Origin: an uncultured delta proteobacterium
Lineage (GTDB): Bacteria; Desulfobacterota; Syntrophia; Syntrophales; UBA8958
NCBI GenBank assembly: GCA_903885795.1
Contig: CAISJV010000066.1
Location: forward strand, 1 to 64,000
Length of the DNA stretch: 64,000 bases
Direction: 5' to 3'
This document shows, piece by piece, positions 6,484-26,831 of the stretch. Made by a program: the position numbers and the translations under genes. Position 1 is the first letter of the stretch; each line of letters opens with the position of its first letter. The notes under the pieces are model-generated. The model had not been told where the DNA came from and searched no databases. It saw only the letters and a program-made list of their open reading frames with translations.

Positions 6484-8025
6484 ATGACCGATAGAAGTTT
6501 TTATGGGAGATTCTACGAAATGCTCGTTCCCCAGGCGTGGATCTCCCGAGTCAGGATCCGCCTGATGGGTGGATGGGATGTCTTCGTGGACGCAGTCATA
6601 AACTTCGATAAGAACGGGAATGCAAACCAGGCAGCAGCCATTGCCCTTTACTCCATTCTTTCTTTCATACCCATGTTCATTTTAACCATCATCATGGTGA
6701 ATCAGATTCTTGGCGCCTTTCCTCATGTTCAACACGAAATGGTGGAAGGCGTAAAAAAATTGACCCCCTATTTCTCCGGCCCTCTTCTTGATCAGCTTGG
6801 CGGCGTCGAGGAAAAGAAGCATGTCCTGGGTTGGATCGGAATCATCTCCCTGATCTGGTTTTCCTCCATGATTTTCGGGGCTATTGAAACAGCCATGAAC
6901 ATGATCTTCCATTCCCACAGCCCCCGAAATTATCTTACATCGAAACTTCTGGCTATTGCTATGATTCCCGCCGGCTGGGCGGTGGCGCTGGCCAGTATAA
7001 TCGTTACCTATGTAGTCGCACTCCTCGCCAAACAACCATTGCTGGCAGAGACTGTTTTCCAGAACTTCCCCATGATAAATGGCGTCTTCTTTCAGCATGC
7101 CCTCCCGTTCCTGGTCACGGTACTATTCTTCACGATCCTGTATAAAGTTATTCCCACGGGAAAAATCCCCTTGGGGATAGCCATCACCGGTGGGGCGATC
7201 TTTTCCGCCCTCATGGAAATTGCCAAGCATTTCTTTGCATGGTATGTCGCCAACTATACTCGCTATAATGTGATCTTCGGTTCTCTGGAAACTGTTGTCA
7301 TCCTTGTGATCTGGGTATTCTACATCGCCCTGATCCTGCTTTTTTGCGCCGAGTTGATGGCCTCCTTCATGAGAAGGGATTTAATCCTCCTGAAAAAGGC
7401 CTTCTTCAAGCCTGGCAAAAAATGGTTAGCCAGGGATGAGAGGCTCTTCCATAAGTTCGGCCGCATGTATCCCAAGAATACCTACGTCTTTCAAGAAGGT
7501 GATGCAAGTGATGAGATGTACTATATCCTGTCCGGAAGGATACAACTGGAAAAGACATTGGGGACGACAAGAAAAATTTTGACCGATATGAGGCCGGGCA
7601 ATTATTTTGGTGAAATAGCAGCGCTTATCGACGCCAGGAGAACTGCATCAGCAAAGGCAAGCGAGGACACAGAGCTGGCGGTAATTGACGGGGACACTTT
7701 CCGAAACCTGCTGAGAGAAAGCGACGACGCTTCTCTCCTCATGCTCAAGGAATTTTCCCGCCGGATCAAAAAAAGCGATGAAGTCCTCGAAGATACGACC
7801 CATACCTGGCTCCGCCTGGTCCTGATTGTGTATTTCCTGAAAAACGATCCATTTCCCCAAAAGTGGGATCCCGTGGCCGAATTGACGTCCCTCACCGGAA
7901 AAGACGATAGCGAGATTGTAGATATTCTCAATGAACTCAATCGGTCAGATGTACTGCAATATAAGGAGGGCCGAATTACCGGTTTCGACAAAGAAAAGGC
8001 TTGGCAGATCATTTTCAAAAAATAA
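6484..8025 (+). CDS. YihY/BrkB-family membrane protein fused to a CRP/FNR-like regulator module
   Basis: A 513-residue fusion. Residues about 30-300 form the YihY/BrkB (formerly RNase BN-like) domain with about six membrane helices, including ALYSILSFIPMFILTII and the terminal VVILVIWVFYIALILLFCAEL. Residues about 318-430 are a cyclic-nucleotide-binding domain with phosphate-cassette-like GEIAALIDARRTASA at 376-390. Then comes a long helix and a winged-helix-like segment (about 462-505, ELTSLTGKDDSEIVDILNEL). This is the domain order of CRP, attached to a membrane protein. The recognition-helix position is acidic rather than basic, so DNA binding is doubtful and the module may instead gate the membrane part. 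Start ATG 6484 begins the family-like N-terminus and has GGAAGG upstream, though with long spacing. Confidence 0.88.
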   Translation: MTDRSFYGRFYEMLVPQAWISRVRIRLMGGWDVFVDAVINFDKNGNANQAAAIALYSILSFIPMFILTIIMVNQILGAFPHVQHEMVEGVKKLTPYFSGPLLDQLGGVEEKKHVLGWIGIISLIWFSSMIFGAIETAMNMIFHSHSPRNYLTSKLLAIAMIPAGWAVALASIIVTYVVALLAKQPLLAETVFQNFPMINGVFFQHALPFLVTVLFFTILYKVIPTGKIPLGIAITGGAIFSALMEIAKHFFAWYVANYTRYNVIFGSLETVVILVIWVFYIALILLFCAELMASFMRRDLILLKKAFFKPGKKWLARDERLFHKFGRMYPKNTYVFQEGDASDEMYYILSGRIQLEKTLGTTRKILTDMRPGNYFGEIAALIDARRTASAKASEDTELAVIDGDTFRNLLRESDDASLLMLKEFSRRIKKSDEVLEDTTHTWLRLVLIVYFLKNDPFPQKWDPVAELTSLTGKDDSEIVDILNELNRSDVLQYKEGRITGFDKEKAWQIIFKK

Positions 8026-10108: not shown

Positions 10109-10187
10109 TGACTGGCCAAACCCATGAACATTACCCCAAACTGCTTCCTCTTGCCTTCTCCCTGCCCTATGGACCTTTGCCTGTGGA

Positions 10188-12263: not shown

Positions 12264-12316
12264 CCTTATACCACCATATATCTTAAATTATCATGCATAA
12301 TGATCAGTCCGGACTT

Positions 12317-12345
12317 CCTATAAATAAATCGCCCCTCCCTGTCAA
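12317..12345 (-). promoter_or_regulatory. sigma70-type promoter for the ADP-forming acyl-CoA ligase
   Basis: On the minus strand, TTGACA (12345-12340) and TATAGG (12322-12317) are separated by exactly 17 bases, about 54 bases before the ligase ATG. Confidence 0.6.
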
Positions 12346-12375
12346 TCTCTCCTTTCTCTCTTCCCTCCTTTCACC

Positions 12376-12403
12376 TTGACATCATTATGATTACCTGTAG
12401 AAT
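12376..12403 (+). promoter_or_regulatory. sigma70-type promoter for the CoA-transferase gene
   Basis: TTGACA (12376-12381) and TAGAAT (12398-12403) with 16-base spacing lie about 100 bases before the preferred ATG at 12505. It is divergent from the ligase promoter, so the two metabolic genes may share a control region. Confidence 0.6.
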
Positions 12404-12504
12404 TAACCTGTCGCTATATGGGACCATGAATGGCAAATCGGATTATGAACATTAATCTTCGATTTCCTGTTCAAACCCGGAATAAAGGGAGAAGGAGAAA
12501 AGCA

Positions 12505-14379
12505 ATGCCCCTGGAAAAATGGAAAGAGCAATACCCGGAAAAATTCGCCTCCGAAGGGGAAATTTTCAGCCATATCCATCGAGGCGATACGATCTTTATC
12601 GGTTCGGCCTGCGCCGAACCGCAGCATCTGGTGCAGGGCCTGATCCGTTATGTCAAATCCCATCCCAAGGCCTTTTTCGACGCCGAGGTACTCCATATCC
12701 GCTCCCTTGGCGTCGCCCCCTACGCCACAGAAAAGTTCAAACACAACTTCCGGCACAATTCCTTCTTCATCGGCGATAGCACCCGGGAAGCCGTCAATAA
12801 AGGCGTGGCCGATTACACACCCGTCTTTCTCTCCGAGACGCCGGAACTATTCCGCAGCGGCCTAGCAAGGGTGGACATCGCCCTCATCCAGACTTCCCTC
12901 CCTGACGATCACGGGTACCTGAGCCTCGGGATCAGCGTCGATATCGTCAAGGCTGCGGTCCAAAAGGCCTCAATCGTCGTAGCCCAGATGAACAAATTTA
13001 TGCCCAGGGTCCACGGCGACGCCTTTATCCACATGCGGGACATTGATTTTCTTGTCCACAATGACGAACACCTCCTGGAATACAGCAATGATGCGGATTC
13101 GGAAATAGCGCTCAACATCGGCAAATACGTCGCCCGTCTCATTGAAGACGGCGACACGATCCAGGTCGGCTACGGGCGCATCCCGAACGCTGTCCTGGCA
13201 AACCTGAAGGAAAGAAAACATCTGGGCGTCCACACGGAACTGATCAGCGACGGGATTATCGAACTGATGAAGTCAGGGGTCATTGATAATACAAAAAAGA
13301 CTGTCAATCCGGGGAAAACGGTGACGACTTTCTGCATGGGGAACAAGGCTACCTATGATTATCTCCATGACAACCCGGCCATCGAATTCCGGACTATCGA
13401 CTATACCAACAATCCCCTGGTCATCGCCCAGCATGATCACATGACGGCAATCAACAGCGCCCTGGAGATCGACCTTACGGGCCAGGCAACGGCGGAGTCC
13501 ATAGGCCGAATCTTTCACAGCGGCGTCGGGGGACAGGCGGATTTCATGCGCGGGGCCGTCTTCGCCAAGGGTGGCAAGTCCATTCTCACCATTCAATCCA
13601 CGGCGGCCTGCGACGTCGTCTCCCGGATCGTCCCCATGCTCAGGGAAGGTTCCGGCGTTACCCTGACCCGGGGGGATCTTCACTATGTGGTTACGGAATT
13701 CGGCATCGCTTACCTCCACGGAAAGAGCATCCGGGAACGGGCAATGGAACTCATCGGCATCGCCCATCCCAAATTCCGGCCCTGGCTCATTGACGAGGCC
13801 AAAAAGTTAGGGCTGATCTACAAGGATCAGGCATTTATCCCCGGCGTCCGTGGTGAGTATCCTGAACACCTTGAGAGTTACCGGACAACCAGAAAAGGTT
13901 ACAATATCCTCTTTAGGCCCATCAAAATCAGCGATGAACCGCTGTTGAAGGACTTCATCTACTCCCTTTCGGATCAGAGTCTTTACCGCCGGTTCATGTC
14001 GGTCCGAAAGGATGTCCCCCATGAGGTGCTGCAAAAGCTTGTCGTTATTGATTACACCGTCGAAATGGCCATTCTCGCCATCCTGCCCCAGGGCGAAAAT
14101 GAAGAGATCGTCGGTGTTGGCAGATACTATACCGATGAAGCGACGCATGCGGCAGAAGTTGCCTTTGCCGTAAAGGATACACATCAACAACTGGGGATCG
14201 GAACGGAACTTCTCGCCTATCTGACGTATCTGGCTAAAAGACAGGGTCTTCTCGGCTTTACGGCAGAGGTCCTCTCGGATAATCAGCCGATGATGCACAC
14301 CTTTGAAAAGGGCGGCTTCGACCTGGAAAAAAAGAAAGTCGCCGGTCTCTGGGAACTGAAGATGACCTTCCGGGAGTAA
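12505..14379 (+). CDS. acetyl-CoA hydrolase/CoA-transferase fused to a GNAT acetyltransferase
   Basis: A 624-residue bifunctional protein. Residues about 1-440 are a family I CoA-transferase of the Ach1/4-hydroxybutyrate CoA-transferase type (VTEFGIAYLHGKSIRERAMELIGIAHP is characteristic), moving CoA between acyl groups. Residues about 460-624 are a GNAT domain with the acetyl-CoA loop HQQLGIGTELL, similar to the GNAT of protein acetyltransferases Pat/PatZ. ATG 12505 is chosen because GGGAGAAGGAG precedes it and family similarity begins at MPLEKWKEQ; an upstream ATG at 12430 would add 25 unconserved residues. Divergent from the ADP-forming ligase and only 3 bases from the following caspase gene. 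Possibly the GNAT acetylates the transferase or ligase; that is inference. Confidence 0.9.
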   Translation: MPLEKWKEQYPEKFASEGEIFSHIHRGDTIFIGSACAEPQHLVQGLIRYVKSHPKAFFDAEVLHIRSLGVAPYATEKFKHNFRHNSFFIGDSTREAVNKGVADYTPVFLSETPELFRSGLARVDIALIQTSLPDDHGYLSLGISVDIVKAAVQKASIVVAQMNKFMPRVHGDAFIHMRDIDFLVHNDEHLLEYSNDADSEIALNIGKYVARLIEDGDTIQVGYGRIPNAVLANLKERKHLGVHTELISDGIIELMKSGVIDNTKKTVNPGKTVTTFCMGNKATYDYLHDNPAIEFRTIDYTNNPLVIAQHDHMTAINSALEIDLTGQATAESIGRIFHSGVGGQADFMRGAVFAKGGKSILTIQSTAACDVVSRIVPMLREGSGVTLTRGDLHYVVTEFGIAYLHGKSIRERAMELIGIAHPKFRPWLIDEAKKLGLIYKDQAFIPGVRGEYPEHLESYRTTRKGYNILFRPIKISDEPLLKDFIYSLSDQSLYRRFMSVRKDVPHEVLQKLVVIDYTVEMAILAILPQGENEEIVGVGRYYTDEATHAAEVAFAVKDTHQQLGIGTELLAYLTYLAKRQGLLGFTAEVLSDNQPMMHTFEKGGFDLEKKKVAGLWELKMTFRE

Positions 14380-14382
14380 ATA

Positions 14383-17300
14383 ATGAGAAAAACAGTCACG
14401 GGAAAAACAATTATTGTATGGATCATCCTGTTGCTCCTTGGCCTTCCCGCCGCCACAACGGCCCAGGAAAAGGCCTGGCTGGGAGCCCAGGTGCAGAGTT
14501 TGACGCCGTCGGCCTCCATAGACAACGCAAGACGGTCGAGACCGGGAGGAGAGTCGGGTCTCATGGTGACAGGTGTGGATCAGGGAAGCCCTGCCCAATT
14601 GATGGGATTGAGAAAGGGAGATGTGATTCTCACGGCAAATATGCGCAAGCTCGCCAGTCCTGTTGATCTTAATAATGTCGTCGCCACCCTGCAACCCGGA
14701 GAAGAGATAGATTTCTCGGTGCTCCGGGCCGGACAACAATACACTTTCTTCGGAAGATTGATGGCGGCGCCGCAGCCGCCTTCACCAACCACGTCAAGGG
14801 TTCCGAAGACGAGCATTTCCGACGATACGGAAATTTTTGTTCAGATGGGGCATACCTCCCGCGTTGTTTCTGTTGCCTTTTCCCACGATGGGCAGTTTAT
14901 TCTTGGCGGCGATTCCGGCCCCTCGGCCATGCTCTGGGATACATCAACGGGCAAGGAAATAAGATCGTATAAAGACTTTGATGGCTATATCACTAAGGTA
15001 GCCTTTTCACCGGACGGACGATTTGTCCTGGCGGGCGGTTACGGAGGCATGAGCCTGAAAGTATGGGACTTTATCACCGGCAAGGGCATCTGGTCCGTCA
15101 AGGGACACGCCAACATGGGGATCGCCTGCATGACTTTTTCTCAAGACGGCAGATACGTCCTGTCGGGAAACGCTGATAATACGATGAGGCTCCGTGACGC
15201 CACAAGCGGGAAGGAAATCAAGACCTTCACGCTTAGAGACGGCGCGGAGGCCGCGATGGCCGTCGCCTTATCTCCGGATACAAAACATGCCCTGTCAGTC
15301 GGCAAAGACGGCATTCTGCGGCTTTGGGACATTGCCTCCGGCCATGAGATCAAGTCCTTCCATGGTCGGCCGGGGTCGGTCCGGGCTGTTGCTTTTTCTC
15401 CCGACGGCAGGCATGTCTCCTCCGGAACCGGCAAAACCCTCATCAAGACATGGGAGATTGCCAGCGGGCGGGAAACGCGGTCTTTTTCCATGGAGACGGA
15501 CGACGACGTCTCCGGTGTATCCTTTTCTCCGGACGGCAAATACGTCCTTTCCGTCGGCACGGACCGGGTCTTCAGATTATGGGATCTCCGGTTTGGAAAG
15601 GAAATCAGGACCTTTTCGGGACATTCCATCCTGATTTATGACACCGCCTTCTCCAGCGACAGTAGATATATCGCCTCCGGCAGCGAGGACAAAACCATCA
15701 AGCTCTGGGATACCGCCACGGGCAGAGAGATAAGAACGTTTTCCGGTAACGCCTCCTGGATCTACTCGACCAAATTTTCCCCCGATGGCCGGCAGGCCGT
15801 CTCCGCCAGCGGAGATATAACGGTCAAACAATGGGATATGGCTGCGGGCAGAGAGATTGCGGCCTTTCCCATCCACAAAAGCAGGGTTAGATGGGCCGAT
15901 TTTTTACCTGATGGACGGCGCGTCCTATCCATCTCCGCCGGCATGAGGGACAACTTCCGGCTCTGGGACACCACGACCGGGAAAGTTGAATTAACACTGA
16001 CAGGACACGCGAGCTTTGTCAATGCCGCCGCTATTTCGCCGCACGGGAAGTATGCCATCTCCGGCGGCCAGGATAAGCTCTTGAAACTTTGGGATCTTTC
16101 TTCCGGCTTGGAGCTGAAAACCTTCCACGGTCATACCAGCGAAGTGAACTCCCTATCCTTCTCTCCCGACGCAAAATTTGTTCTGTCGGCAGACAACAGT
16201 GTCTTACGATTATGGGAACTCTCCACCGGACGGGAGATAAGAACCTTTTCGGGACACAGGGGAAAGATTTTCTCGGCTGCCTTTTCTCCGGATGGTAAAT
16301 ATGCCGTCTCCGGAAGCGTGGATAAGACAATAAAGCTCTGGAACATTGCCACAGGTCAGGAGATAAAAACTTTTTCCGTTCATGGGGGAAGCGTCACCAG
16401 TGTCGCCTTTTCCCATGATGGCAGGTTTATCTCGTCGGGAAGCGGTGATAATTCAGTGAGATGCATAGAAACTGCAACGGGCAGGGAAATCTCGACCTTC
16501 ACCGGCCATAGCACCTGGGTCAATTCAGTGTCCTTTTCACCGGATGATAAATATCTGTTATCCAGCAGTTTCGACGGCACCACGAGACTCTGGGATCGCG
16601 CTACCGGCAAGGAAATGGCCCGATTCATCGGCTTCAACGATGGCGAATGGATCGTCATCACCCCGGAAGGCTACTACAATTCCTCCCCCAACGGCCACAA
16701 GCATCTGAGCATCCGCATGGGGAACAGTATTTACGGCATTGATCAGTTCTATGACGTCTTCTATCGCCCCGACATCGTCGCCACCAGATTGAAAGGCGAA
16801 GACATCAGCGGACTGGTTACCCTGACCATCAATGAGGCGATCAAGAATCCACCACCTGTCGCTCAATTTACCTCGGCGCCATCTGACGCCGCCATGCAAC
16901 CGCTGGTTAAGGTCTGCTATCGGGCGGAAAGCACCGGCGGCGGCATCGGAGAGATCCGGTTGTTTCATAACGGAAAGCTTATCCAGTCCGACGGCTTTTA
17001 TCGAGGCACTCTCAACACCGCAGGAAAGGTTCAACTGGCGGCAGTGAACAGCAAGGCCATCTACGAGGAAATGCGGAGCATCACCATAAAGGGCAAAGCC
17101 GAATCCGGTGCGCTCCTGAGCCGCGCCAAGGGAGAGATCTACGAGGATTGCCGGGAGGTCGAGGCCGTTCCCGGTGAAAACGAAGTGAGCGTCATGGCAT
17201 TCAACAGCAACAACACCGTTCAGGGTCAGATGAAAACGATCAGTTTCCATTCCCGGCTTCAACCCCGGGAGCCTCACCTATATGTATTATCCGTCGGTAT

Positions 17301-18012
17301 TGATCGGTATAAAGATCCGGGCGTCAATCTGAAATATGCCGTGAAGGATGCCCGAGACATAGAGGATAAGCTCCTCCGGCAGTCTGCTACTATATATAAA
17401 CTGGGAAATATTCACCATGAACTGTTGACCGATGATAAAGCGACCAAGGAAAACATCACCGCCCGAATCGCTGAGCTTTCGCGCTTGGTCAAGCCTGACG
17501 ACGGCTTTATTCTTTTTGTCGCCGGCCACGGTGTGCTCCTCCAGAATCAATACTATATGCTCACCCATGACTACAACGGCCAGGTCAGTGACCAAAGCCT
17601 GATCAGTTCCAATGAAATCGTGGATATGTCCAAGAAAATTAAATCGCTCCATCAGTTGTTAATCTTCGATACCTGTCATGCCGGCGGCGTCGATTACATT
17701 GTCAGCGGTCTATATGACGCCCGCATCTCCGTACTGGCCAAGAAGATGGGATTGCACATCTATGCCTCGGCAAGCGACAAACAAGCGGCTATGGATGGAT
17801 ATAAGGGGAACGGGCTGTTCACTTATACCCTGCTGGACGGTCTGGCAAACAACCGAGAGGCCGACAAGTACAAAGACGGGCTGGTCAGCGTCGTTGGTCT
17901 TGGCGGCTACTCTAAAAAGACAACCGCTGCCATCTCGAAAGAAATCGGCCACAGTCAGACGCCATTGATTATCAATTTCGGGAAGGATTATCCTCTATAC
18001 AAGCTGCCGTGA
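14383..18012 (+). CDS. secreted PDZ - 14x WD40 - caspase (C14) protein
   Basis: A 1209-residue multidomain protein. A signal peptide (IIVWIILLLLGLPAATTAQ) predicts export. A PDZ domain follows (about 35-125, GLMVTGVDQGSPAQLMGLRKGDVIL). Then about 14 WD40 repeats (about 155-755, pattern FSPDGKY...LWD...TGREIRTFSGH), enough for two seven-bladed propellers. A connecting region starts GEWIVITPEGYYNSSPNG, and the C-terminal caspase-like domain (about 963-1209) has an intact dyad: His1049 in FVAGHGV and Cys1098 in FDTCHAGG. It starts 3 bases after the CoA-transferase stop, with the ribosome site inside that gene's last codons, so the two are co-transcribed. The likely role is regulated proteolysis in the periplasm with the propellers as sensor; the target is unknown. 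Confidence 0.92.
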   Translation: MRKTVTGKTIIVWIILLLLGLPAATTAQEKAWLGAQVQSLTPSASIDNARRSRPGGESGLMVTGVDQGSPAQLMGLRKGDVILTANMRKLASPVDLNNVVATLQPGEEIDFSVLRAGQQYTFFGRLMAAPQPPSPTTSRVPKTSISDDTEIFVQMGHTSRVVSVAFSHDGQFILGGDSGPSAMLWDTSTGKEIRSYKDFDGYITKVAFSPDGRFVLAGGYGGMSLKVWDFITGKGIWSVKGHANMGIACMTFSQDGRYVLSGNADNTMRLRDATSGKEIKTFTLRDGAEAAMAVALSPDTKHALSVGKDGILRLWDIASGHEIKSFHGRPGSVRAVAFSPDGRHVSSGTGKTLIKTWEIASGRETRSFSMETDDDVSGVSFSPDGKYVLSVGTDRVFRLWDLRFGKEIRTFSGHSILIYDTAFSSDSRYIASGSEDKTIKLWDTATGREIRTFSGNASWIYSTKFSPDGRQAVSASGDITVKQWDMAAGREIAAFPIHKSRVRWADFLPDGRRVLSISAGMRDNFRLWDTTTGKVELTLTGHASFVNAAAISPHGKYAISGGQDKLLKLWDLSSGLELKTFHGHTSEVNSLSFSPDAKFVLSADNSVLRLWELSTGREIRTFSGHRGKIFSAAFSPDGKYAVSGSVDKTIKLWNIATGQEIKTFSVHGGSVTSVAFSHDGRFISSGSGDNSVRCIETATGREISTFTGHSTWVNSVSFSPDDKYLLSSSFDGTTRLWDRATGKEMARFIGFNDGEWIVITPEGYYNSSPNGHKHLSIRMGNSIYGIDQFYDVFYRPDIVATRLKGEDISGLVTLTINEAIKNPPPVAQFTSAPSDAAMQPLVKVCYRAESTGGGIGEIRLFHNGKLIQSDGFYRGTLNTAGKVQLAAVNSKAIYEEMRSITIKGKAESGALLSRAKGEIYEDCREVEAVPGENEVSVMAFNSNNTVQGQMKTISFHSRLQPREPHLYVLSVGIDRYKDPGVNLKYAVKDARDIEDKLLRQSATIYKLGNIHHELLTDDKATKENITARIAELSRLVKPDDGFILFVAGHGVLLQNQYYMLTHDYNGQVSDQSLISSNEIVDMSKKIKSLHQLLIFDTCHAGGVDYIVSGLYDARISVLAKKMGLHIYASASDKQAAMDGYKGNGLFTYTLLDGLANNREADKYKDGLVSVVGLGGYSKKTTAAISKEIGHSQTPLIINFGKDYPLYKLP

Positions 18013-18018
18013 AGGAGC

Positions 18019-18091
18019 AACAGTTAACTGTTCATCAGCAATATTGAAGTGTTCAAGCCGCATGATACTTTCTTCCGAACAATCGATTGTT
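18019..18091. other. two 14-bp palindromes between convergent caspase and oleD genes
   Basis: AACAGTTAACTGTT (18019-18032) and AACAATCGATTGTT (18078-18091) lie in the 77-base gap between converging genes; the second overlaps the oleD stop. Neither has a T-tract, so they are poor intrinsic terminators. They may be coincidental or protein-binding sites. Confidence 0.3.
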
Positions 18092-19133
18092 AATTTGAAC
18101 CCTTCAACCAGGTCTGCAATCGAAGCAGCCCTTCTTCCATGGAAACTCGGGGTTCGTATTTCAGCTCCCGCCGGGCGGCGGAGATGTCGAACCAGTGGGA
18201 CGTCGAGAGTTCCTCAGCGAGAAACCTCGTCATCCGTGGCTCTCCCGGCAACTTCAGGGCCAGATGGATGCTTTCGGCCATGGCTCCCAGGATGACGGCG
18301 ACGGATTTCGGGATGCCCCGGCGAATCGGCGTAATACCCGCCATCGCCAGGATACGGTTGACAAAATCCCAGAGATTTACCGGCTCGCCATTGGAGATAA
18401 AATAGGCCCGGCCCGAGGCTTGCGGGTTGTCCATCAGGGCAGTTGCTGCCAGGAGATGGGCGGCGGCAACGTTGTCTATGTAGGTCGTATCGATGATGTT
18501 TTTCCCTGCACCCACGCGGATGATCTTTCCCGCCCTGGCCTGGGCGAGGATGCGGGGAATGATCTGGGTGTCCCCCGGTCCCCAGATGAGGTGGGGGCGC
18601 AGGGAAATGGTCCGCATGGACGGGGAGTCGGCGGCGAGGACCAGGCGCTCCCCTTCCGCCTTTGTGGCTGTGTAGGGAGAACGTGGATGGGCCGGATATG
18701 GAACGGATTCATCGGCTCCTTCCATGTCGGCATCGCCGAAAACAACGCTTGCGGAACTCGTAAAGACCAGCCTGCCGACGCCGACGCGACCGCAGGCAGC
18801 CAGGATATTCTTCGTGCCCACAACGTTCGGCCGATAAAAGGAATCGAAATCGCCCCATACACCGGCCTTGGCTGCATTATGGAAGACAATGGCGCAGCCT
18901 TCGCAGGCCCGCCTCACCGCATCAGGGTCCGTCAGATTCCCCCTGATCACTGTCACGCCCCGCTGCCGCAACTCCGGATAGTCTCCCCGGGCGAAACTCC
19001 GCACCTCATATCCGGCAGCCAAGAGGTGCTCGACAACGGCCCGGCCCAAAAATCCACCGCCGCCGGTGACCAGGACTTGCTTCACTGCCGGTCGGAGCGA
19101 TTCGGAACTGAATTCTTTTTTTTCAGTGCTCAT
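18090..19133 (-). CDS. oleD: OleD, 2-alkyl-3-ketoacid reductase
   Basis: A 347-residue extended short-chain dehydrogenase of the 3-beta-hydroxysteroid dehydrogenase type. It carries the nucleotide motif TGGGGFLG near the N-terminus and a YxxxK catalytic pair (SPYTATKAEGE). In the known ole pathway OleD reduces the 2-alkyl-3-ketoacid made by OleA to a 2-alkyl-3-hydroxyacid, using NADPH. It is the last gene of the minus-strand operon. ATG 19133 lies inside the end of oleC (11-base overlap, AATGAGCACTGA), indicating translational coupling; more upstream starts would run deeper into oleC. Assignment rests on fold plus operon context; alone it could be any 3-beta-HSD-like reductase. Confidence 0.88.
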   Translation of the reverse strand: MSTEKKEFSSESLRPAVKQVLVTGGGGFLGRAVVEHLLAAGYEVRSFARGDYPELRQRGVTVIRGNLTDPDAVRRACEGCAIVFHNAAKAGVWGDFDSFYRPNVVGTKNILAACGRVGVGRLVFTSSASVVFGDADMEGADESVPYPAHPRSPYTATKAEGERLVLAADSPSMRTISLRPHLIWGPGDTQIIPRILAQARAGKIIRVGAGKNIIDTTYIDNVAAAHLLAATALMDNPQASGRAYFISNGEPVNLWDFVNRILAMAGITPIRRGIPKSVAVILGAMAESIHLALKLPGEPRMTRFLAEELSTSHWFDISAARRELKYEPRVSMEEGLLRLQTWLKGSN

Positions 19134-20799
19134 TAAGCTTTTCCGCCGCCCAGACAGTAAGCTTCTCCCGGAATATCTTGGCATTGTGGCGGATGTCAAC
19201 GGGGAAACCGGAATGATAGAGAACCGTCCTTATCTCCCGGGTTATTTCGCTGGTCCGGGCAATCGCCAGGATTTCCGCCGTCAGCTTCTCTTTATCCTGC
19301 CCCGCGTCTCCCTGTTTGAGTTCAATGATGATTACCGGCCGCTTCTTTCCCGTCACCCCGACGCCTACAAGGGCCGAGCGCCTTACCCGGGGATGTCCGT
19401 TGAAGAGGGCCTCGCAGGGGATGGTGAAAAGGATTCCCCCGGCCGTTTCCACCCGGTGAGTCTTCCGGCCGCAGAACCACAACCGTCCCGTATCATCCAG
19501 GTAGCCAAGGTCCCCCATGCGGTGCCAGATGCCACCGTCGGCGTCCTTCATTTTAGCCACCCGGGTCGCCCCGGGATTCTGGTAATATTCCTTCGTCGTC
19601 ACCGGTCCCCTGACGACAATCTCTCCGATCTGTCCTTGGGGCAGGATAGTCGCGTCATCGATCCTTGCCAGCGGTTTTTCCGTAATCTCGACAATCCGGA
19701 CCTCCATCCCTGCCAGGGGCCTGCCGACACAGGTCCCACCGCCCGTTTCGGAAATTCTTCTGGTCTCGGAAAGGATCTCTTTACTATCGATATCGCTGAC
19801 GGGGAGGACCTCCGTCGCCCCATATGGGGTATGGATCCGGGCGTCGTCTGGCAACATGCGGTGCATGGCCTCCATGAGATCCGGCCGCACCGGGGCTCCG
19901 GCGGTGATTATCCGCTTGACGGCAGGAAGCTTCTTCCCTGTCTCCAGCCCGTAACGGGCCAGATTTTCCAACAATGCGGGCGATCCGTACATGCTTTTAC
20001 AGTTGTGCATCTCGAGGGCCTGAATGATTTTCTTTGGGTCCGCAGCACCGGGACGGGTGGGATCCATGTCGGGAATGACCGAGGTCATCCCCAGGACGGC
20101 GTCAAAAAGGGAGAAGAGGGGGAAGGTCGCCAGATCTACCTCATCCTGACCATAGCCGAAGTGGGTGCTCAGGTAACGGACCTGGGCGTCAAACATCCCG
20201 TGTTCATAGACGACGCCCTTGGGAGGCCCGGTGCTGCCGGTGGTAAAGAAGATAGCGGCCCGCTCATCGGGGCGGGCGGGAACGGGGGTAAAAGGCTGCC
20301 AGGGGGCCTTGCGAAAATCATTAAGGGTATATCCACCCCAGAAAAAGCGCCTGCCGACAGTAATCTTTACCTTCACGGTCGAGAATTTACCCGGTGAGAG
20401 GACCCTCAGGATATGGGCCAGGGGGATGCCGATGAAGGCCTCGGCGCCAATGGAGGAAAGATTATCCACCAACTTCTGCCGACCCATGCCCGGATCGATC
20501 ATCACCGGGATAGCCCCCACCCGGAAGAGGGCAAAGGTGACGGCAAACAACTCCAGGGACGGCCGGACCATGAGGATCGTCTTGACCCCCTTGGTAATCC
20601 CTACCTTCTGGAAACCGTGGGCCAGGCGGTCCGTTTCCTCCTCCAGTTCCCGGAAGGTCCAGTGGACAAAGGTTCCGGAGTTGGGAGCAGATGGACAGAT
20701 AACGGCCTTCTTGTCCGGAAGGAGGCGGGCGACGCGGGAGAGATGCTCACTGAGGTTCGAGGTGCTGTTGATATTTGGGGTGCTGGCTGGATCTTCCAT
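19123..20799 (-). CDS. oleC: OleC, beta-lactone synthetase (AMP-dependent ligase family)
   Basis: A 558-residue ANL-superfamily adenylating enzyme. The P-loop-like motif is IFFTTGSTGPPKGVVYEHG, followed by the PYGATE motif and the late Arg/Lys region (MGDLGYLDDTGRLWFCGRKTHRV). In the ole pathway OleC converts the 2-alkyl-3-hydroxyacid to a beta-lactone with ATP. ATG 20799 gives an N-terminus (MEDPASTPNINSTSNLSEHLSRVARLLPDKKAVIC) of normal length and lies 8 bases after the oleB stop; an upstream frame would overlap oleB by 130 bases. GGATAAG serves as a weak ribosome site. A long-chain acyl-CoA ligase role would be the alternative, but gene order oleB-oleC-oleD argues against it. Confidence 0.9.
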   Translation of the reverse strand: MEDPASTPNINSTSNLSEHLSRVARLLPDKKAVICPSAPNSGTFVHWTFRELEEETDRLAHGFQKVGITKGVKTILMVRPSLELFAVTFALFRVGAIPVMIDPGMGRQKLVDNLSSIGAEAFIGIPLAHILRVLSPGKFSTVKVKITVGRRFFWGGYTLNDFRKAPWQPFTPVPARPDERAAIFFTTGSTGPPKGVVYEHGMFDAQVRYLSTHFGYGQDEVDLATFPLFSLFDAVLGMTSVIPDMDPTRPGAADPKKIIQALEMHNCKSMYGSPALLENLARYGLETGKKLPAVKRIITAGAPVRPDLMEAMHRMLPDDARIHTPYGATEVLPVSDIDSKEILSETRRISETGGGTCVGRPLAGMEVRIVEITEKPLARIDDATILPQGQIGEIVVRGPVTTKEYYQNPGATRVAKMKDADGGIWHRMGDLGYLDDTGRLWFCGRKTHRVETAGGILFTIPCEALFNGHPRVRRSALVGVGVTGKKRPVIIIELKQGDAGQDKEKLTAEILAIARTSEITREIRTVLYHSGFPVDIRHNAKIFREKLTVWAAEKLNEH

Positions 20800-20807
20800 G
20801 TTTTTTC

Positions 20808-21758
20808 TTATCCGGAAAGGGGATGTTTTTTCAGGAATACCTGGATCAGTTGAATAATTGCTTCCCCTTCGTCTTCGAGAATATAATGCCCTCCCTTGGA
20901 AAATGTGTGTACCTCCGCTTCTGGAAATCGTCTGCACCATTCGGCCAGGATAATCTCGTCAAAGACAAAATCCCTCATCCCCCAGCAAATCATCATAGGG
21001 ATATGACTCAGGAGGTGGAGGTGCTCATCTGTCCACTTCACGAGGGCGTAACTCTTGTCTTTTGGATAAACGGGGATATCCTGGACAAAGCGCAAGGTAG
21101 CAATCCGGTTTTCCCAGGAGTCGTAAGGGGCCGTCAGGGCCTCCCTCACCTCCCCGGACATCGTCTTGGCAACGCCTAGAAAAGTGGCGCCATAGGAAAA
21201 GGCGTTAAAACCGCGCACCAGCAGTGCCGGAATGGCCGGAAAATGGCGGATGAACGATAATTGCCAGGGCAACTCCTTCCCTGCGGGGATGAGAAAGGCT
21301 CCCGTATTGAGAATGACGATCCGGGCGATCCGTTCCGGCCTCCGGGCGGCGCAGGCCATCCCGATCATCCCTCCCCAGTCGTGAACGATCAGGGTGACGT
21401 TGCTCGTCAGCCCTAAATGATCCAGGAGGGCTTCGAGATTATCGACATGGCTCTCTACGGTGTAATCAAAAATCTCGTCCGTCGGTCGCGAGGAAAGTCC
21501 GCAACCCACATGGTCCGGAACAATCACACGACAAGATGGACTCAGCGCCTTCACGATCTCGCGGTAATAAAATGACCAGGTGGGATTGCCGTGGACGGCC
21601 ACCACGGATGCCCCCTGCCCTTCATCCAGGTAGTGATAGAAATAACCACAGGCAGCCTTCAGCCAATGGCTCGCGAAAGGATATAAACGACGGTGCGGGG
21701 TGATATCAAAGGGGGGGGTGATTTTGTCCGCAACAGCATCAGCTGGTTCTAATTTCAT
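20808..21758 (-). CDS. oleB: OleB, beta-lactone decarboxylase (alpha/beta hydrolase)
   Basis: A 316-residue alpha/beta hydrolase resembling haloalkane dehalogenases. The oxyanion segment is VHGNPTWSFYYREIV and the nucleophile is Asp127 in IVHDWGGMIGM; a late acid/His pair is visible (FSKGGHYILEDEGE). In Ole systems OleB decarboxylates the beta-lactone to a cis-olefin. The Asp nucleophile, unlike the Ser of esterases, fits OleB. It is followed 8 bases later by oleC. A 126-bp palindromic element lies between it and the upstream ketosynthase gene. Confidence 0.9.
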   Translation of the reverse strand: MKLEPADAVADKITPPFDITPHRRLYPFASHWLKAACGYFYHYLDEGQGASVVAVHGNPTWSFYYREIVKALSPSCRVIVPDHVGCGLSSRPTDEIFDYTVESHVDNLEALLDHLGLTSNVTLIVHDWGGMIGMACAARRPERIARIVILNTGAFLIPAGKELPWQLSFIRHFPAIPALLVRGFNAFSYGATFLGVAKTMSGEVREALTAPYDSWENRIATLRFVQDIPVYPKDKSYALVKWTDEHLHLLSHIPMMICWGMRDFVFDEIILAEWCRRFPEAEVHTFSKGGHYILEDEGEAIIQLIQVFLKKHPLSG

Positions 21759-21816: not shown

Positions 21817-21942
21817 GACGGCTTCGTAAAAAGATCCGCAGGCAAGGCGCGCAAGTCCTGAGGAATGAGGCGTACTTGTCGTACGCCGCAGTGACGAAGG
21901 ATGCCGCGCAACGCAGCATCCGGATCTTTTTACGAAGCCGTC
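21817..21942. repeat. 126-bp palindromic element between oleA' and oleB
   Basis: Perfect 21-bp terminal inverted repeats (21817-21837, 21922-21942; GACGGCTTCGTAAAAAG and complement) enclose a core with GGCAAGGC, GAGGCGTACTTGTCGTACGCCG and GACGAAGGATGC. The last bases overlap the TGA stop of oleA'. The core resembles the element at 5085-5208. There is no coding capacity. Inside an operon it could attenuate transcription between the ketosynthase genes and oleBCD or protect the upstream mRNA segment. Confidence 0.85.
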
Positions 21943-22825
21943 ACAGATTTCGGTAGAGGGCGAGAGAGACTGTTATCCCTGCTCCGACGGTCAGGAACAA
22001 ACAATTTTTCGCTGCGGAGAAGCGTCCCGAACTCATGGCCCGTTCCAGGGCAAAACCGATGCCCGCCGTGTGCACATTCTCCAGTTTGTCGGTCACGTCA
22101 ACGAGCTTCTCTTCCATACCCTTCTTCTTTTTGAGCTCACCAAGAAAGCCGGTCGGACTCTGGGATGGAATGATAAGATCTATGTCCTTCATTTTGAGAG
22201 AAGTCTCCTTTAAAAAAGCATCCAGGTTTTCCATGGTAAACTGGGCGCATGCTCTGGCAAATCCTTCTGCCTGGCTCATCACCAGGATATTTTTCATCTT
22301 CCGCTTATGCTGCTTCCATTCGATTCTGCCACGCAGATCATCAATAAAACGAGCCTCCGTAGCTGCCTTGAAATGGATGAATCCTCCCCCTTCCGCGCTG
22401 CGGGACAGGAGCATGGCGGCGGCGGCAGGGGTATAGTTGTAACCCTGGCTTTCACCGGGAACCGGGTCGGTATCGGCAGTAACGACCATACCGTAATCAA
22501 TCGTACCTGACTGGAGAAAGCCGTCCACGACCATCACACCGGTAAGCATCCCGCAGCCCCCGTTGGTCAAGTCAAAGGCAAAGGTGGTGCGATCCCCGGT
22601 AAAGAGCTCATTGGCGCCGATAGCCCGTTGAATGAAAGTAGCAATGGCGGGCTCCCCGATATGATGATCACGGTAAATACCTGTATTGACGAGGATACCC
22701 AGCATATTCGGGTCCAATTCAGCGTTTTTCAAGCAGTCTTTTGCCGCCTTTATTTCCATCTCAATGGAACCACGTCGGAAAAATCCCGGAGTGCTTAAAC
22801 CAACCGCATCAATTTTCGATCCCAT
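21941..22825 (-). CDS. degenerate ketosynthase III-like partner of OleA
   Basis: A 294-residue thiolase-fold protein of the FabH/OleA type. Aligned with the neighbouring OleA, the catalytic Cys position is Gly90 (FDLTNGGCGMLTG; a Cys sits one residue later) and the catalytic His is Ser221 (IIPSQSP instead of LVPHQTS), while Asn250 is kept. It also lacks about 45 residues near the N-terminus. It therefore looks catalytically inactive as a condensing enzyme. ATG 22825 overlaps the oleA end by 17 bases, so the two are made together, suggesting a heterodimer comparable to PqsB with PqsC or a chain-length factor. Alternatively it is a decaying paralogue, but the frame is intact. Its TGA stop falls on the end of the palindromic element. 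Confidence 0.85.
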   Translation of the reverse strand: MGSKIDAVGLSTPGFFRRGSIEMEIKAAKDCLKNAELDPNMLGILVNTGIYRDHHIGEPAIATFIQRAIGANELFTGDRTTFAFDLTNGGCGMLTGVMVVDGFLQSGTIDYGMVVTADTDPVPGESQGYNYTPAAAAMLLSRSAEGGGFIHFKAATEARFIDDLRGRIEWKQHKRKMKNILVMSQAEGFARACAQFTMENLDAFLKETSLKMKDIDLIIPSQSPTGFLGELKKKKGMEEKLVDVTDKLENVHTAGIGFALERAMSSGRFSAAKNCLFLTVGAGITVSLALYRNL

Positions 22826-23915
22826 AACGATCCACCAAATCATCCATAGTAAAAATTACGAAGCCAACAGTCAAACCCGAAGCCAAGGCCATAAGCATCA
22901 TCTTCTCTCCGGGCTTGAAACGCTTTTCATTAAGATAACTGTACAGGGCCAGGAAGTGGGATGTTGACGCGGTATTTCCATATTCCTGCAGGATCACGAC
23001 CATGTTCTTCACCCGCTTACCAAAATAATGGCCCAGTCTCTTGCCTCCCGAATAGACGGCCCGCATGGAGGTCTGGTGAGGAACGAGGTGATCGATATCC
23101 CCGCATTCTATTCCGAATTCTTGCAATGCCCTTCCCATAATAGGCGGCGTATCAGCGATTGCCACCTTATGAATCTTCCTGGCCTGAGTGGTCATTTGCG
23201 CCCCTGGCGCATCGCGACAAGGCCCGCCGATACAGAGATCGCTGTACTTGGACAGGGTGACAAAATTCGATACCTCCAATCTTGCTTTACCTTCCCCGGA
23301 TCTTTCTAGAATCACCGCGGCGCCACAGTCGCCGACGGTTAACGATGCCAATTGTCCGCTGAGAATGGTTTTAACGCGGGGAACGGCGTTACGGCTCGCT
23401 GATGTGAGGTTCTCACCGGAGATGACCATACCGCACTTGATGACCCCACGGCGGATAAAATCATCCATAATAAATACACCCGTAAGCATCCCGGCGCAGG
23501 CATTGGCGATGTCGAAATTCAAGGCCCGGGGCGCCCCGATGGCCTCCTTGACATACAGGGAAAAAGGTGGCTCCCAAACGTAAGTCGTGCCATCCTTATA
23601 CTTGGTAATGGAGCAACATATGATCATCTCCAGGTCTTCGGCCTTGTGCGTCGAATGCTTGAGACAGTCCAGGGCGGCATTGAGGGAAAGATCATAGGAA
23701 TCTTCTGTCTCCGAGCACACCCGGCGTTCCTTGATGCCGGTCAGACGTTCGAGATCGAGCTTTCCCCACATTTTTACCCCCTTCATTAAATCCTTCGTGG
23801 ATAGGCGTTGTTCAGGAACCTTGACGCCGATGCTCTCAAAGCGGCTGGCAAAGGGGGGAGATGAAGATGCGGAAGGGCCGGACGGACTTCCTTCTTTCGT
23901 TTTCTCAGTTTTCAT
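22809..23915 (-). CDS. oleA: OleA-like ketosynthase III (acyl-CoA condensing enzyme)
   Basis: A 368-residue thiolase-superfamily enzyme with the full triad: Cys140 in FDIANACAGMLTG, His280 in LVPHQTS, Asn314 in YGNTAST. In Ole systems OleA joins two long-chain acyl-CoAs head to head to a 2-alkyl-3-ketoacid. It is first in a minus-strand operon whose later genes match oleB, oleC and oleD in order, which supports OleA over FabH. An extra Ser/Pro-rich N-terminus (about 1-25) precedes the fold. ATG 23915 has GGAGGTG upstream with longer than usual spacing (about 14), so a start inside the Ser/Pro segment is possible. Product chain length is unknown. Confidence 0.88.
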   Translation of the reverse strand: MKTEKTKEGSPSGPSASSSPPFASRFESIGVKVPEQRLSTKDLMKGVKMWGKLDLERLTGIKERRVCSETEDSYDLSLNAALDCLKHSTHKAEDLEMIICCSITKYKDGTTYVWEPPFSLYVKEAIGAPRALNFDIANACAGMLTGVFIMDDFIRRGVIKCGMVISGENLTSASRNAVPRVKTILSGQLASLTVGDCGAAVILERSGEGKARLEVSNFVTLSKYSDLCIGGPCRDAPGAQMTTQARKIHKVAIADTPPIMGRALQEFGIECGDIDHLVPHQTSMRAVYSGGKRLGHYFGKRVKNMVVILQEYGNTASTSHFLALYSYLNEKRFKPGEKMMLMALASGLTVGFVIFTMDDLVDRYGIEN

Positions 23916-23967: not shown

Positions 23968-23996
23968 ATCATATTGGAATCACCCTGCCCTGTCAA
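23968..23996 (-). promoter_or_regulatory. sigma70 promoter of the ole operon
   Basis: On the minus strand TTGACA (23996-23991) and TATGAT (23973-23968) are separated by exactly 17 bases, a near-consensus promoter about 53 bases upstream of the oleA ATG. Confidence 0.75.
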
Positions 23997-24097: not shown

Positions 24098-24478
24098 ATG
24101 CTGGATCTGGCAAAAAAAGCAGCCCTGATCGGCGCAGGGCTGGCCCTTGCGGCGACGGACAAAATTCAAGGCGTCGTTGACAATCTGGGAGAAAAAGGAG
24201 AAATCGGGCGCAAGGAAGCCCGGGAAGCCGTCGAAGGTCTCGTGGAAAAAACACAAAAAACTCGCCATGCCATCGAAAGCGAGACGGAAAAGGTTATGAC
24301 TGACTTTACCGCCTTCTGGTTCTATGCCAACTGGACGGATGAAATGGAGGATCAGGTGGAGAAAGTCGTAACCCTCCTCTTGAGGAAACTCCACATTCCG
24401 GAACGGCGGGAGTTGGAGGACATCAAGGCCAGGATTGAAGGGCTGGAGAAGGAAGCAACCCGGGATAATAAAAATTAA
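24098..24478 (+). CDS. small phasin-like (granule-associated) protein
   Basis: A 126-residue mostly helical protein. A short hydrophobic N-terminus (AALIGAGLALAATDKI) is followed by charged amphipathic helices (EIGRKEAREAVEGLVEKTQKTRHAIESETEKV) and a terminal coiled-coil stretch (LHIPERRELEDIKARIEGLEKEA). This resembles small PhaF/PhaI-type polyhydroxyalkanoate granule proteins, which coat hydrophobic inclusions. No PHA synthase is in the window, but the divergent ole operon makes hydrophobic hydrocarbons. Good ribosome site (GAAGGGAG). It is the first gene of a three-gene unit. Confidence 0.7.
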   Translation: MLDLAKKAALIGAGLALAATDKIQGVVDNLGEKGEIGRKEAREAVEGLVEKTQKTRHAIESETEKVMTDFTAFWFYANWTDEMEDQVEKVVTLLLRKLHIPERRELEDIKARIEGLEKEATRDNKN

Positions 24479-24509
24479 TCAATATTCAGTTTATCAAAAG
24501 GAGGCAGAT

Positions 24510-25325
24510 ATGACAAAAAGGACTGTTATTATATGGGTTATCGGCGTTTTATTTCTTTTCACCGCTTCCGTTGTCTCGGCGCAGATGACGGGAAGACAGG
24601 TCATGGAAAAACAGAAGGAACGCCATAAGGTCAAGACTGAAGTCGGCAATGAGGACATGATGCTCGTCGACAAGAGCGGGTCCAAGGAAAATCGCCAGGT
24701 CGTGCGCTATGCAAAGGAAGTCGGTAAGGACGTGCACCGCTATCTCGTGGTGTTTCTGAGCCCCGGCGACATCCGCGGGACGGCTCTGCGGACTTGGGAG
24801 AAAAAAGGCGGAGACAACGATCAGTGGCTCTACCTGCCGGCAAAGAAAACGGAGCAGCGCATTGCCAAGGCGGGGAAGAAAAATTACTTCATGGGCACCG
24901 ATTTTACCTATGAAGACATGGAGCCGGAAGATCTGGACAATTTCAATTACAATATCCTCCGCTCGGAGCAGTTCAGCCATGAGGGAAAAGCTTATGACTG
25001 TTATGTGATCGATGCCCTTCCCGCCAATGACAAGAAAAAGCAGGAAACCGGCTATGCCAAGCGAATCATGTGGATCGAAAAGGTCAACCTGACCACCTTG
25101 AAGACGGATTTCTACGACAAGCGTGAAAAACATCAGAAAACCCAAATTAATTACAAGTATGAGAATGTGGGCGGAGACGTCATGCGCCCCAAGCAAACCA
25201 TTATGAATAACATGGAAAAGAGCCACAAAACGGTGACGTCGACCACATCCCGAAAGATAAATGTCACTATGGCAGATTCCACCTTCACTGATGCGTTTAT
25301 TCTATCAGGCAAACATCTCGAGTAA
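24510..25325 (+). CDS. outer-membrane lipoprotein-sorting (LolA-like) protein
   Basis: A 271-residue exported protein with signal peptide (VIIWVIGVLFLFTASVVSAQ). The mature part matches the LolA-like 'outer membrane lipoprotein-sorting protein' family (PF17131 type; YLVVFLSPGDIRGTALRTWEKKG, QWLYLPAKKTEQRIA, FMGTDFTYEDME). Members often sit beside MMPL/RND exporters and beta-barrel partners and are thought to carry lipids in the periplasm. ATG 24510 is preceded by AAAAGGAGG, which fixes the start. The next gene, 15 bases on, is an outer-membrane barrel. No RND permease is present here. Confidence 0.85.
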   Translation: MTKRTVIIWVIGVLFLFTASVVSAQMTGRQVMEKQKERHKVKTEVGNEDMMLVDKSGSKENRQVVRYAKEVGKDVHRYLVVFLSPGDIRGTALRTWEKKGGDNDQWLYLPAKKTEQRIAKAGKKNYFMGTDFTYEDMEPEDLDNFNYNILRSEQFSHEGKAYDCYVIDALPANDKKKQETGYAKRIMWIEKVNLTTLKTDFYDKREKHQKTQINYKYENVGGDVMRPKQTIMNNMEKSHKTVTSTTSRKINVTMADSTFTDAFILSGKHLE

Positions 25326-25340
25326 AGGAGTCCGTTACCG

Positions 25341-26831
25341 ATGAGAATAAGCCCGTTTCTCAAAAGTTTAGCCCTCCTGCTGGTCGTGTGTCTCCTCTCC
25401 CCCCCCTTCATTTGGGGGCAGACGGATTACCGTTTCCAGGAAGACGATCTGCTCAAGGAAATGGATAAGGCGGCGCCTGCCCCACCGGAGCAAAAAGGTC
25501 AGGAGAAGGTTCCCCAGGCGCCGGCAAAGCAGCCAACCGCTCTCTCAAAGCTGGTGGATGATTTCCACGGCAGCCTCCGTCTCCGCGGGGTGCAATACTG
25601 GCAGAATCCGCCGGAAAGGGAAGGGGCGGATACAAGAAATACTTTCGGCGAGACCCTTTTCAAGTTTTCCGACAAGATCAGTTACAAGAACTTCGCCCTT
25701 AATGTCGGCGGCTGGGTCGAGTACGGCAACCAGGAAAACACCTATTCCGGAACCTCTTTCAGTGAGTTCTGGCAGGACATGGACCGGCGCCGGCGTATCG
25801 TGGATGTAAGCGATCTTTACCTCAACTACAGCCGCGACACATTCAACTTTCTTATCGGGAAAAAGACCCTTACCAATGGTATGTCCACTCTGTACCTGCC
25901 CTCCGACCGGATGCGACCACAGGACCTCAATGATCCCATGGACGTCAAGGATCTCAACATCTGGCAGGCGCGAATGGATTTCGACATAGCGGAAGCGACG
26001 ACGCTAACGGCCGCCTTTCTCCCCATTTATCAGCCCCAGAAGACACCCAGCGAGACTTCACGCTGGATGGGAGAAAAGAAGCAGGGAGACTCCACGGAAT
26101 TCGACCTCTACGACGCGGGAAATGCCAATATGAGGGAAGATTATCCCCAGGGCGATGCCAACTTTGGCTATTTTGCCCGATTCAAGAAGAAGGGGTTTCA
26201 CGGCTGGGATCTCTTTGCCTCCTTTTATCACGGTCCCAATCCCTTCTATGTCATTCGGGAAGAACAAGTGCCGGGACCAACTCCAGGAAGCACCCAACCC
26301 CAGCGCATCAAGGAAGTTGTGACGGTGGATGACTACGCCGCCGGTTTCTCCACGACCTATGAAAGCTGGGAATTTCATGGAGAGGTTGTATATAACTTCA
26401 GCTACGATCGGAAGGATGACGACTATTTCAATTACGTAGGCGGATTTACTTACACTTTTGATGACTTTGCCAAAAAGCTCTGGCTGGAGAAGATCGAATT
26501 TACCGCCGAATACGCCAATGAGATCATCACCAGAGTTCAGAACGCGGCAAACTTTGTCTCCAGCTCCAAGAAATCGCGCCTGGGCCGTAATGACATCCTG
26601 AGCCGCATCAATTTTGAGTACAACAACAAGTTGTCTTTTCAGTTCGTCTGTAATTTTCAGGTCGACCAGATTGATTATGGACGGTTTCAGAGACTGGAGG
26701 CAAAATACAAATTACGGGATGGTCTGATTTCAAAACTCGCGGGTGAGTTCTTCGGGGGGCAAAACGACAGCACCTACGGCCGCTGGCAAAAAAACGACCG
26801 GCTCATCCTGGAGTTCGAGTATAGCTTCTGA
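25341..26831 (+). CDS. outer-membrane beta-barrel protein, DUF1302/alginate-export-like
   Basis: A 496-residue exported barrel. It has a signal peptide (SLALLLVVCLLSPPFIWGQ), a Pro/Gln/Lys-rich linker (about 38-75), then long amphipathic strands such as SLRLRGVQYWQNP, FALNVGGWVEYGNQ, VSDLYLNYSRDTFNFLIGKKTL and the terminal RLILEFEYSF ending in Phe. The segment LYLNYSRDTFNFLIGKKTL is typical of DUF1302-type porins, which commonly pair with the LolA-like protein found just upstream. Ribosome site AAAGGAG. Together with the two preceding genes it may move a hydrophobic compound across the outer membrane. Confidence 0.82.
   Translation: MRISPFLKSLALLLVVCLLSPPFIWGQTDYRFQEDDLLKEMDKAAPAPPEQKGQEKVPQAPAKQPTALSKLVDDFHGSLRLRGVQYWQNPPEREGADTRNTFGETLFKFSDKISYKNFALNVGGWVEYGNQENTYSGTSFSEFWQDMDRRRRIVDVSDLYLNYSRDTFNFLIGKKTLTNGMSTLYLPSDRMRPQDLNDPMDVKDLNIWQARMDFDIAEATTLTAAFLPIYQPQKTPSETSRWMGEKKQGDSTEFDLYDAGNANMREDYPQGDANFGYFARFKKKGFHGWDLFASFYHGPNPFYVIREEQVPGPTPGSTQPQRIKEVVTVDDYAAGFSTTYESWEFHGEVVYNFSYDRKDDDYFNYVGGFTYTFDDFAKKLWLEKIEFTAEYANEIITRVQNAANFVSSSKKSRLGRNDILSRINFEYNNKLSFQFVCNFQVDQIDYGRFQRLEAKYKLRDGLISKLAGEFFGGQNDSTYGRWQKNDRLILEFEYSF

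Follow-up and report, generated by a model that had tools for sequence, protein, structure and literature searches.

The window analysed here, a stretch of 64,000 nucleotides, carries on its minus strand a five-gene operon transcribed in the order A1, A2, oleB, oleC, oleD. The first gene, A1 (22809-23915, 368 aa), encodes an OleA/FabH-like ketosynthase with Cys140, His280, Asn314 and Glu115, which we take as the putative active subunit, and the second, A2 (21941-22825, 294 aa, ATG at 22825), encodes an LstB-like partner that has neither the nucleophile nor the His and bears Glu58. The two FabH-type frames overlap by 17 bp (22809-22825), as the first-pass annotation of this DNA had described; an alternative in-frame ATG for A2 at 22843 would lengthen the overlap to 35 bases, yet conservation starts at MGSKI. 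Downstream lie genes for an OleB-like alpha/beta hydrolase (20808-21758), whose HGNPTW, HDWGG, DFVFD and GHY motifs are those found in 12 OleB proteins from single-OleA clusters, an OleC-like beta-lactone synthetase (19123-20799; 716 bits on NF006754, cut-off 478) and an OleD-like 2-alkyl-3-oxoalkanoate reductase (18090-19133; 405.8 bits on an NCBI equivalog model with a cut-off of 580). The OleC-like protein likewise falls under both OleC equivalog cut-offs of the NCBI models, and it is with OleC and OleD scoring below these strict thresholds that genes for OleB, OleC and OleD adjoin the condensing-enzyme pair. A promoter-like site upstream of A1 (23968-23996, minus strand; 11 of 12 positions, 53-81 bp before A1) is weak, because the scan gave 7 sites where 3.7 were expected.

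Several other features surround these genes. Between A2 and oleB, 27-bp inverted arms (93%) form a repeat at 21817-21942 that abuts the A2 stop codon, and a search for the arm pattern gave 19 hits across the 4.0-Mb genome (reversed control, 0). Divergent from the operon, the plus strand at 24098-26831 encodes a phasin, a LolA_like protein and a 496-aa protein (25341-26831) that matched no Pfam family and is barrel-like by reading of its sequence. This trio adjoins the operon in 7 of 9 host-family loci (the studied one included), is joined in one of them (L039) by an MMPL transporter and an ABC1 kinase, and was found in none of the 6 other pair loci and 34 single-OleA-type loci tested; its role is perhaps hydrocarbon storage or export. 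A further plus-strand ORF (14383-18012, 1209 aa) has, judged by eye, WD40-like repeats and a caspase-like C-terminal part.

A1 and A2 share 23% identity over 295 columns (E 4e-19). With 131 bits on NF006720 (cut-off 285), 145 on NF006829 (249) and 129 on TIGR00747 (292), A1 stays below the thresholds of the OleA-type models and of FabH alike. It is the sole NF006720 match in its own genome at E up to 1e-30; the NF006720 cut-off was reached in 0 of 11 pair-bearing genomes. Its predicted structure has a mean pLDDT of 88.6. In a tree of 91 rows, which holds 29 of our 33 A1/A2 pairs (four were added later), A1, A2 and the 21 single OleA proteins from Desulfobacterota are each set apart by one branch (95/95, 100/99 and 98/96, respectively), and the A2 clade is nested within neither A1 nor OleA. 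We consequently reject A1 as a canonical OleA, given its score on NF006720 and the separation of its clade from single OleA. The inner branching of A1 and A2 largely agrees, with disagreement for the Mycobacterium, Aminicenantes and Thermoplasmatota pairs, and pairwise distances within the two families correlate (Mantel test, r 0.938, 0 of 2000 permutations; 32 of 33 pairs, omitting G005, in which A1 is cut at a contig end), a correlation that linked inheritance alone could also produce.

A2 retains the architecture of its family. At the aligned catalytic positions Gly90 stands for the Cys (a Cys follows at 91), Ser221 for the His, and an Asn is present at 250; here, as for Cys140, His280 and Asn314 of A1, the alignment bears out the residues named in the first-pass annotation. 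The same annotation had about 45 N-terminal residues missing from A2, a truncation that we reject in favour of an internal deletion: strand 1 is present, with residue 1 of the model aligning with residue 1 of FabH, and a net 32 residues, counted on the alignment, are absent between strand 1 and the next helix. The aligner sets the A2 motif GFFRR below part of the TGIxERR stretch, the column of the first Arg holding Arg in 13 of 29 A2, and we do not claim that A2 has lost every residue of that stretch. The predicted model of A2 (from a 22-row alignment; mean pLDDT 87.8, pTM 0.89) matches KAS-III chains end to end, with Z up to 32.9, and OleA structures in particular with Z of 30.9-32.0 and rmsd of 2.2-2.4. 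Its least certain part is the block around Glu58 (residues 51-60, mean pLDDT 55), as might be expected of an interface loop modelled alone. Comparison of the studied locus with five congeners gave dN/dS of 0.10-0.15 for A2, 0.07-0.14 for A1 and 0.08-0.15 for oleB, and 0.09-0.15 was obtained for oleC with four congeners; A2 is constrained like its neighbour genes. On the fold model, dN/dS and the residue columns described below, we reject pseudogene-like decay of A2.

The two genes also travel together. In a draw of Desulfobacterota genomes, A1-type proteins were found in 6 of 341 and A2-type proteins (scores of at least 199 bits, the next match having 116) in 6 of 345, and these are the same six genomes. 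Within the host's family, A2 occurs in 9 of 11 sampled genomes (E < 1e-90, studied genome included), and the two that lack it also lack A1, so that no relative carrying the first gene was without the second. Among 26 chosen genomes, 24 have A1, and all 29 A1 matches are adjoined by or fused to A2; most of these genomes were picked for carrying A2, and the fairer test is the phylum draw together with four extra A1 (from G400 and G402). Two natural fusions were encountered. One is a free-standing 666-aa A1-A2 protein (L114; 7140-9137, minus strand) on a 4.09-Mb contig of G522, a genome drawn from the phylum of a Bacteroidales genome; it is neighboured by a cytochrome P450, a phosphopantetheinyl transferase, an acyl-AMP ligase, a PKS-like protein and a 476-aa protein in which no Pfam family was found. 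The other, in the Mycobacterium nebraskense genome of record L058 (L204; 7064-12499, minus strand), is an 1812-aa NRPS frame with condensation, AMP-binding (adenylation) and PP-binding (carrier) domains that ends in A1-A2, and a PKS-like frame adjoins it.

These observations bear on a rival account of the locus, in which A1 forms an OleA homodimer of the usual sort and A2 is a duplicate that is dispensable or in decay. A1 does possess all the residues that a homodimer needs, and other Desulfobacterota ole clusters are served by a single OleA. However, such an account sits poorly with an A2 frame that is open and constrained and has a confidently predicted KAS-III fold, with the presence of A2 beside or within 29 of 29 A1 matches, with two fusions, and with an A2 clade lying outside both A1 and OleA, and we consider it highly improbable.

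Further evidence comes from the active-site columns of an alignment comprising the 33 pairs, 21 single OleA-type proteins from other Desulfobacterota ole clusters and 12 FabH-like proteins, one of which (L077) is long and poorly aligned and was counted as printed; a further record (L053), whose contig starts within A2 and holds no A1, lies outside the 33. A1 has Cys, His and Asn in all 33 pairs. In A2, the Cys column reads Gly (15), Ala (12), Glu (2), Thr (2), Ser (1) and Pro (1), where single OleA proteins have Cys in 21 of 21, and the His column has no His in any of the 33. Asn is found in only 9 of 33 A2, and the view that Asn250 is a kept catalytic residue, as the first-pass annotation had it, is rejected, the residue itself being Asn as stated. 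A fourth column behaves differently: Glu is present in every A2 (33/33), in 32 of 33 A1 (the remaining one has Lys, in G282, and its A2 has Glu) and in 21 of 21 single OleA, and is found in 0 of 12 FabH-like proteins. This is the column of Glu58 in A2, which is the equivalent of OleA Glu117; in one single OleA the Glu-Cys distance is 26 by our own count, the same as the E117 to C143 spacing of the residues named in PDB titles. Identity between A1 and A2 within pairs is 17-25% (n=33). As 14 of the 33 pairs came from a search with two patterns, either sufficient, that hold the Glu-Pro or the Cys-less loop, the residue pattern was partly selected for in those 14; the remaining 19 came from whole-protein or profile searches (four of them from the A1 profile alone), and the pattern is identical in all 19. 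Its recurrence in 33 pairs argues that the combination of an active and an inactive member is not due to chance.

The closest analogue of this arrangement is LstA/LstB, from lipstatin biosynthesis in Streptomyces toxytricini. According to a 2025 review (PMC12141560), LstA and LstB are 23% identical, require each other for solubility and co-purify; LstA has the catalytic residues C128/H271/N305, and in LstB Glu60 is essential, the E60A variant being soluble and inactive. The studied pair resembles it in consisting of adjacent KAS-III paralogues of 23% identity, the larger with a Cys-His-Asn triad and the smaller with a key Glu near residue 60, and the marks of an LstAB-type enzyme recur across our set as two adjacent diverged KAS-III genes, a triad in 33 of 33 A1 and a Glu accompanied by neither Cys nor His in 33 of 33 A2. 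The triad spacing is 140 and 34 in the studied A1, with Glu58 in its A2, and 143 and 34, as in LstA, in three actinobacterial A1 (L057, L059, L061), whose A2 have the Glu at 55-57 and which fall in the same clades as the other A1. From its position, we infer that Glu58 corresponds to LstB Glu60. The differences are that the lst pathway leads to a beta-lactone, whereas an OleB-like gene is present in the operon considered here, a system known from its genes, and that the lipstatin host is an actinomycete and ours a Syntrophales-like anaerobe. A heterodimeric relative of OleA thus has a precedent, since LstA/LstB is a characterised KAS-III heterodimer.

Two other systems invite comparison. With the OleA homodimer of Xanthomonas-type oleABCD clusters the pair shares the partners B, C and D, a Glu at the Glu117 position and, in the A2 model, the fold, but it comprises two genes instead of one, and A1 (131 bits against 285 on NF006720) belongs to another clade. 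PqsB/PqsC of alkylquinolone biosynthesis, the comparison drawn in the first-pass annotation, is similarly a FabH-like heterodimer of one active and one triad-less subunit (PMC4807248), yet PqsC has Val299 in place of the Asn that is present in 33 of 33 A1, uses another substrate, and has in PqsB a partner whose role is described as structural. Membership of the PqsBC family is rejected on the Asn, and PqsBC is a looser analogue than LstA/LstB, a nearer precedent (PMC12141560) that the first-pass annotation had missed.

We therefore consider it probable, from the LstA/LstB data together with the matching spacing and Glu position, that A1 and A2 pair as unlike subunits in an LstA/LstB-type KAS-III heterodimer, in which A1 is acylated and A2 donates in trans the Glu that removes the alpha-proton. 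Glu117 of OleA reportedly acts from the neighbouring monomer (Jensen et al. 2017), and nucleophile and base are said to be split between LstA and LstB (Zhang et al. 2019). By analogy, Cys140 of A1 would take an acyl group from acyl-CoA with the assistance of His280 and Asn314; Glu58 of A2, placed like OleA Glu117, would cross the dimer interface into the A1 active site and deprotonate the bound acyl chain at its alpha position; the chain would then attack a second acyl-CoA. OleD would reduce the resulting 2-alkyl-3-ketoacid, OleC would close the OleD product to a beta-lactone, and OleB would decarboxylate this to a long internal olefin, in line with the ole pathway as outlined in PMC7064751, where OleD, OleC and OleB carry the condensation product to the olefin. 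The earlier proposal that an active and an inactive member form a constant pair and act as a heterodimeric head-to-head condensing enzyme is in this respect strengthened by constant pairing, purifying selection and fusions, with LstA/LstB as its nearest analogue.

The role of A2 within such a dimer could nevertheless be conceived differently, as that of a non-catalytic structural or specificity subunit which, like PqsB or a chain-length factor, stabilises A1 and shapes its channel. PqsB has no triad residue and is assigned a supporting structural role (PMC4807248), A2 has lost both Cys and His, and the own Glu of A1 in 32 of 33 pairs makes its sequence compatible with an active A1 homodimer. 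What a purely structural role leaves unexplained is the retention of Glu in 33 of 33 A2 while the Cys, His and Asn columns drift, and the inactivity of LstB E60A in the nearest characterised pair (PMC12141560); we regard it as distinctly unlikely. Provision of the catalytic Glu58, a residue absent from the first-pass annotation, is to our mind the likeliest role of A2, ahead of the setting of chain length suggested there.

The distribution of the pair is scattered. OleC matches at E up to 1e-120 occur in 38 of 341 Desulfobacterota genomes; four of these have the pair, all in the host's family, and of the other 34 OleC stretches, 21 contain one OleA-type protein and 13 gave no KAS-III match, several of them reaching a contig end. 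For A2 at E up to 1e-40, the phylum of the Bacteroidales gave 2 positive genomes among 395 and that of the Thermoplasmatota 3 among 292 (centre genomes counted), and records with pairs include Bacteroidales, Chlorobiota, Aminicenantes, a Spirochaete, a Thermoplasmatota archaeon, Mycobacterium, Longimycelium, Dactylosporangium and Nocardia. In the host's family the order is A1-A2-B-C-D, with B and C in 9 of 9 loci and D in 7 of 9 (one is cut at a contig end, and in one D was not found in the stretch). A complete ole-type cluster is present in an archaeon (L118; contig 36 of G398), where A1-A2 (7571-9524, plus strand) faces D-C-B (9562-13140, minus strand). On the same contig are genes for RLI, V-type ATP synthase A and B and TFIIB, whose products each exceed the NCBI cut-off of at least one model, and the contig is therefore archaeal; Rfam found two tRNAs only in 139,001 bases of archaeal contig pieces. 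Two further genomes of that phylum have the pair with no oleBCD in the stretch, and a 253-aa neighbour of one archaeal pair (L112) has one match just under the Pfam cut-off.

Elsewhere, gene settings vary. The Spirochaete (G400) has four A1-A2 pairs (L056, L201, L202, L203), one accompanied by a fused OleB-OleC protein and OleD, and three with no recognisable oleBCD adjoining. In five loci (L048, L049, L050, L052, L060), and in L054 up to its contig end, the order is hydrolase-A1-A2-C-D; the hydrolase of these six differs from OleB in its motifs, exceeds in L049, the only one tested, the cut-off of the haloalkane dehalogenase subfamily NF002043, and is perhaps a separate stand-in for OleB. L057 and L059 have A1-A2-C-D with no B, and L061 has A1-A2-D with a weak C match. 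Recognisable oleBCD was not found beside the pair in the stretches fetched for L055, L058, L112-L117 and L201-L203, and that of L047 is too short to judge. In G090 a single contig holds two pairs, L116 and L117, separated by about 11 kb and with no oleBCD adjoining.

A condensing enzyme of the proposed kind might make mainly a beta-lactone, a ketone or another lipid instead of an olefin. The characterised LstAB serves a beta-lactone product (PMC12141560), some pairs have no recognisable oleBCD in the stretches fetched, and one resides on an NRPS. At the studied locus, however, OleB-, OleC- and OleD-like genes share one operon and OleB has the motifs of single-OleA clusters, and clusters with oleB are taken as hydrocarbon makers and those without it as beta-lactone makers (PMC7064751). 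A product other than an olefin therefore appears unlikely here, and the heterodimer would feed the ole pathway.

A KAS-III heterodimer with its catalytic Glu in the small subunit, and its wide occurrence, are already known from PMC12141560, which states that LstB counterparts are widespread and always next to LstA. The novelty lies in where the pair occurs: with a full oleBCD set in an operon of Syntrophales-like bacteria, alongside oleDCB in an archaeon, and in further versions from a Spirochaete and Bacteroidota. Among open-licence papers we noticed none that describes an ole cluster from an archaeon or an LstAB-type pair within a cluster that includes oleB, and nothing relevant on nocardiolactone NltA/NltB. 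A survey published in 2020 placed ole clusters in five bacterial phyla, including Deltaproteobacteria, and reported none from Archaea or Bacteroidetes (PMC7158056).

We lean, with some reserve, towards a broader view, in which these loci represent a second, ancient ole class that depends on an obligate two-subunit KAS-III, with the nucleophile on one chain and the base on the other. This class would span Desulfobacterota, Thermoplasmatota archaea, a Spirochaete and, with another hydrolase, Bacteroidota/Chlorobiota, and would have been missed by single-OleA surveys; because each dimer would have a single active site in which either acyl chain keeps its own role, the class may give directed, unsymmetrical olefins. 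The natural single-chain A1-A2 fusions are handy constructs for studying the LstAB-type mechanism, including the action of the Glu across the interface. If our reading is correct, head-to-head hydrocarbon synthesis extends to Archaea and Bacteroidota, beyond the range given in the 2020 survey (PMC7158056). This suggests that genome surveys keyed to single OleA under-count the pathway, which would in turn bear on the interpretation of hydrocarbon biomarkers from anaerobic settings.
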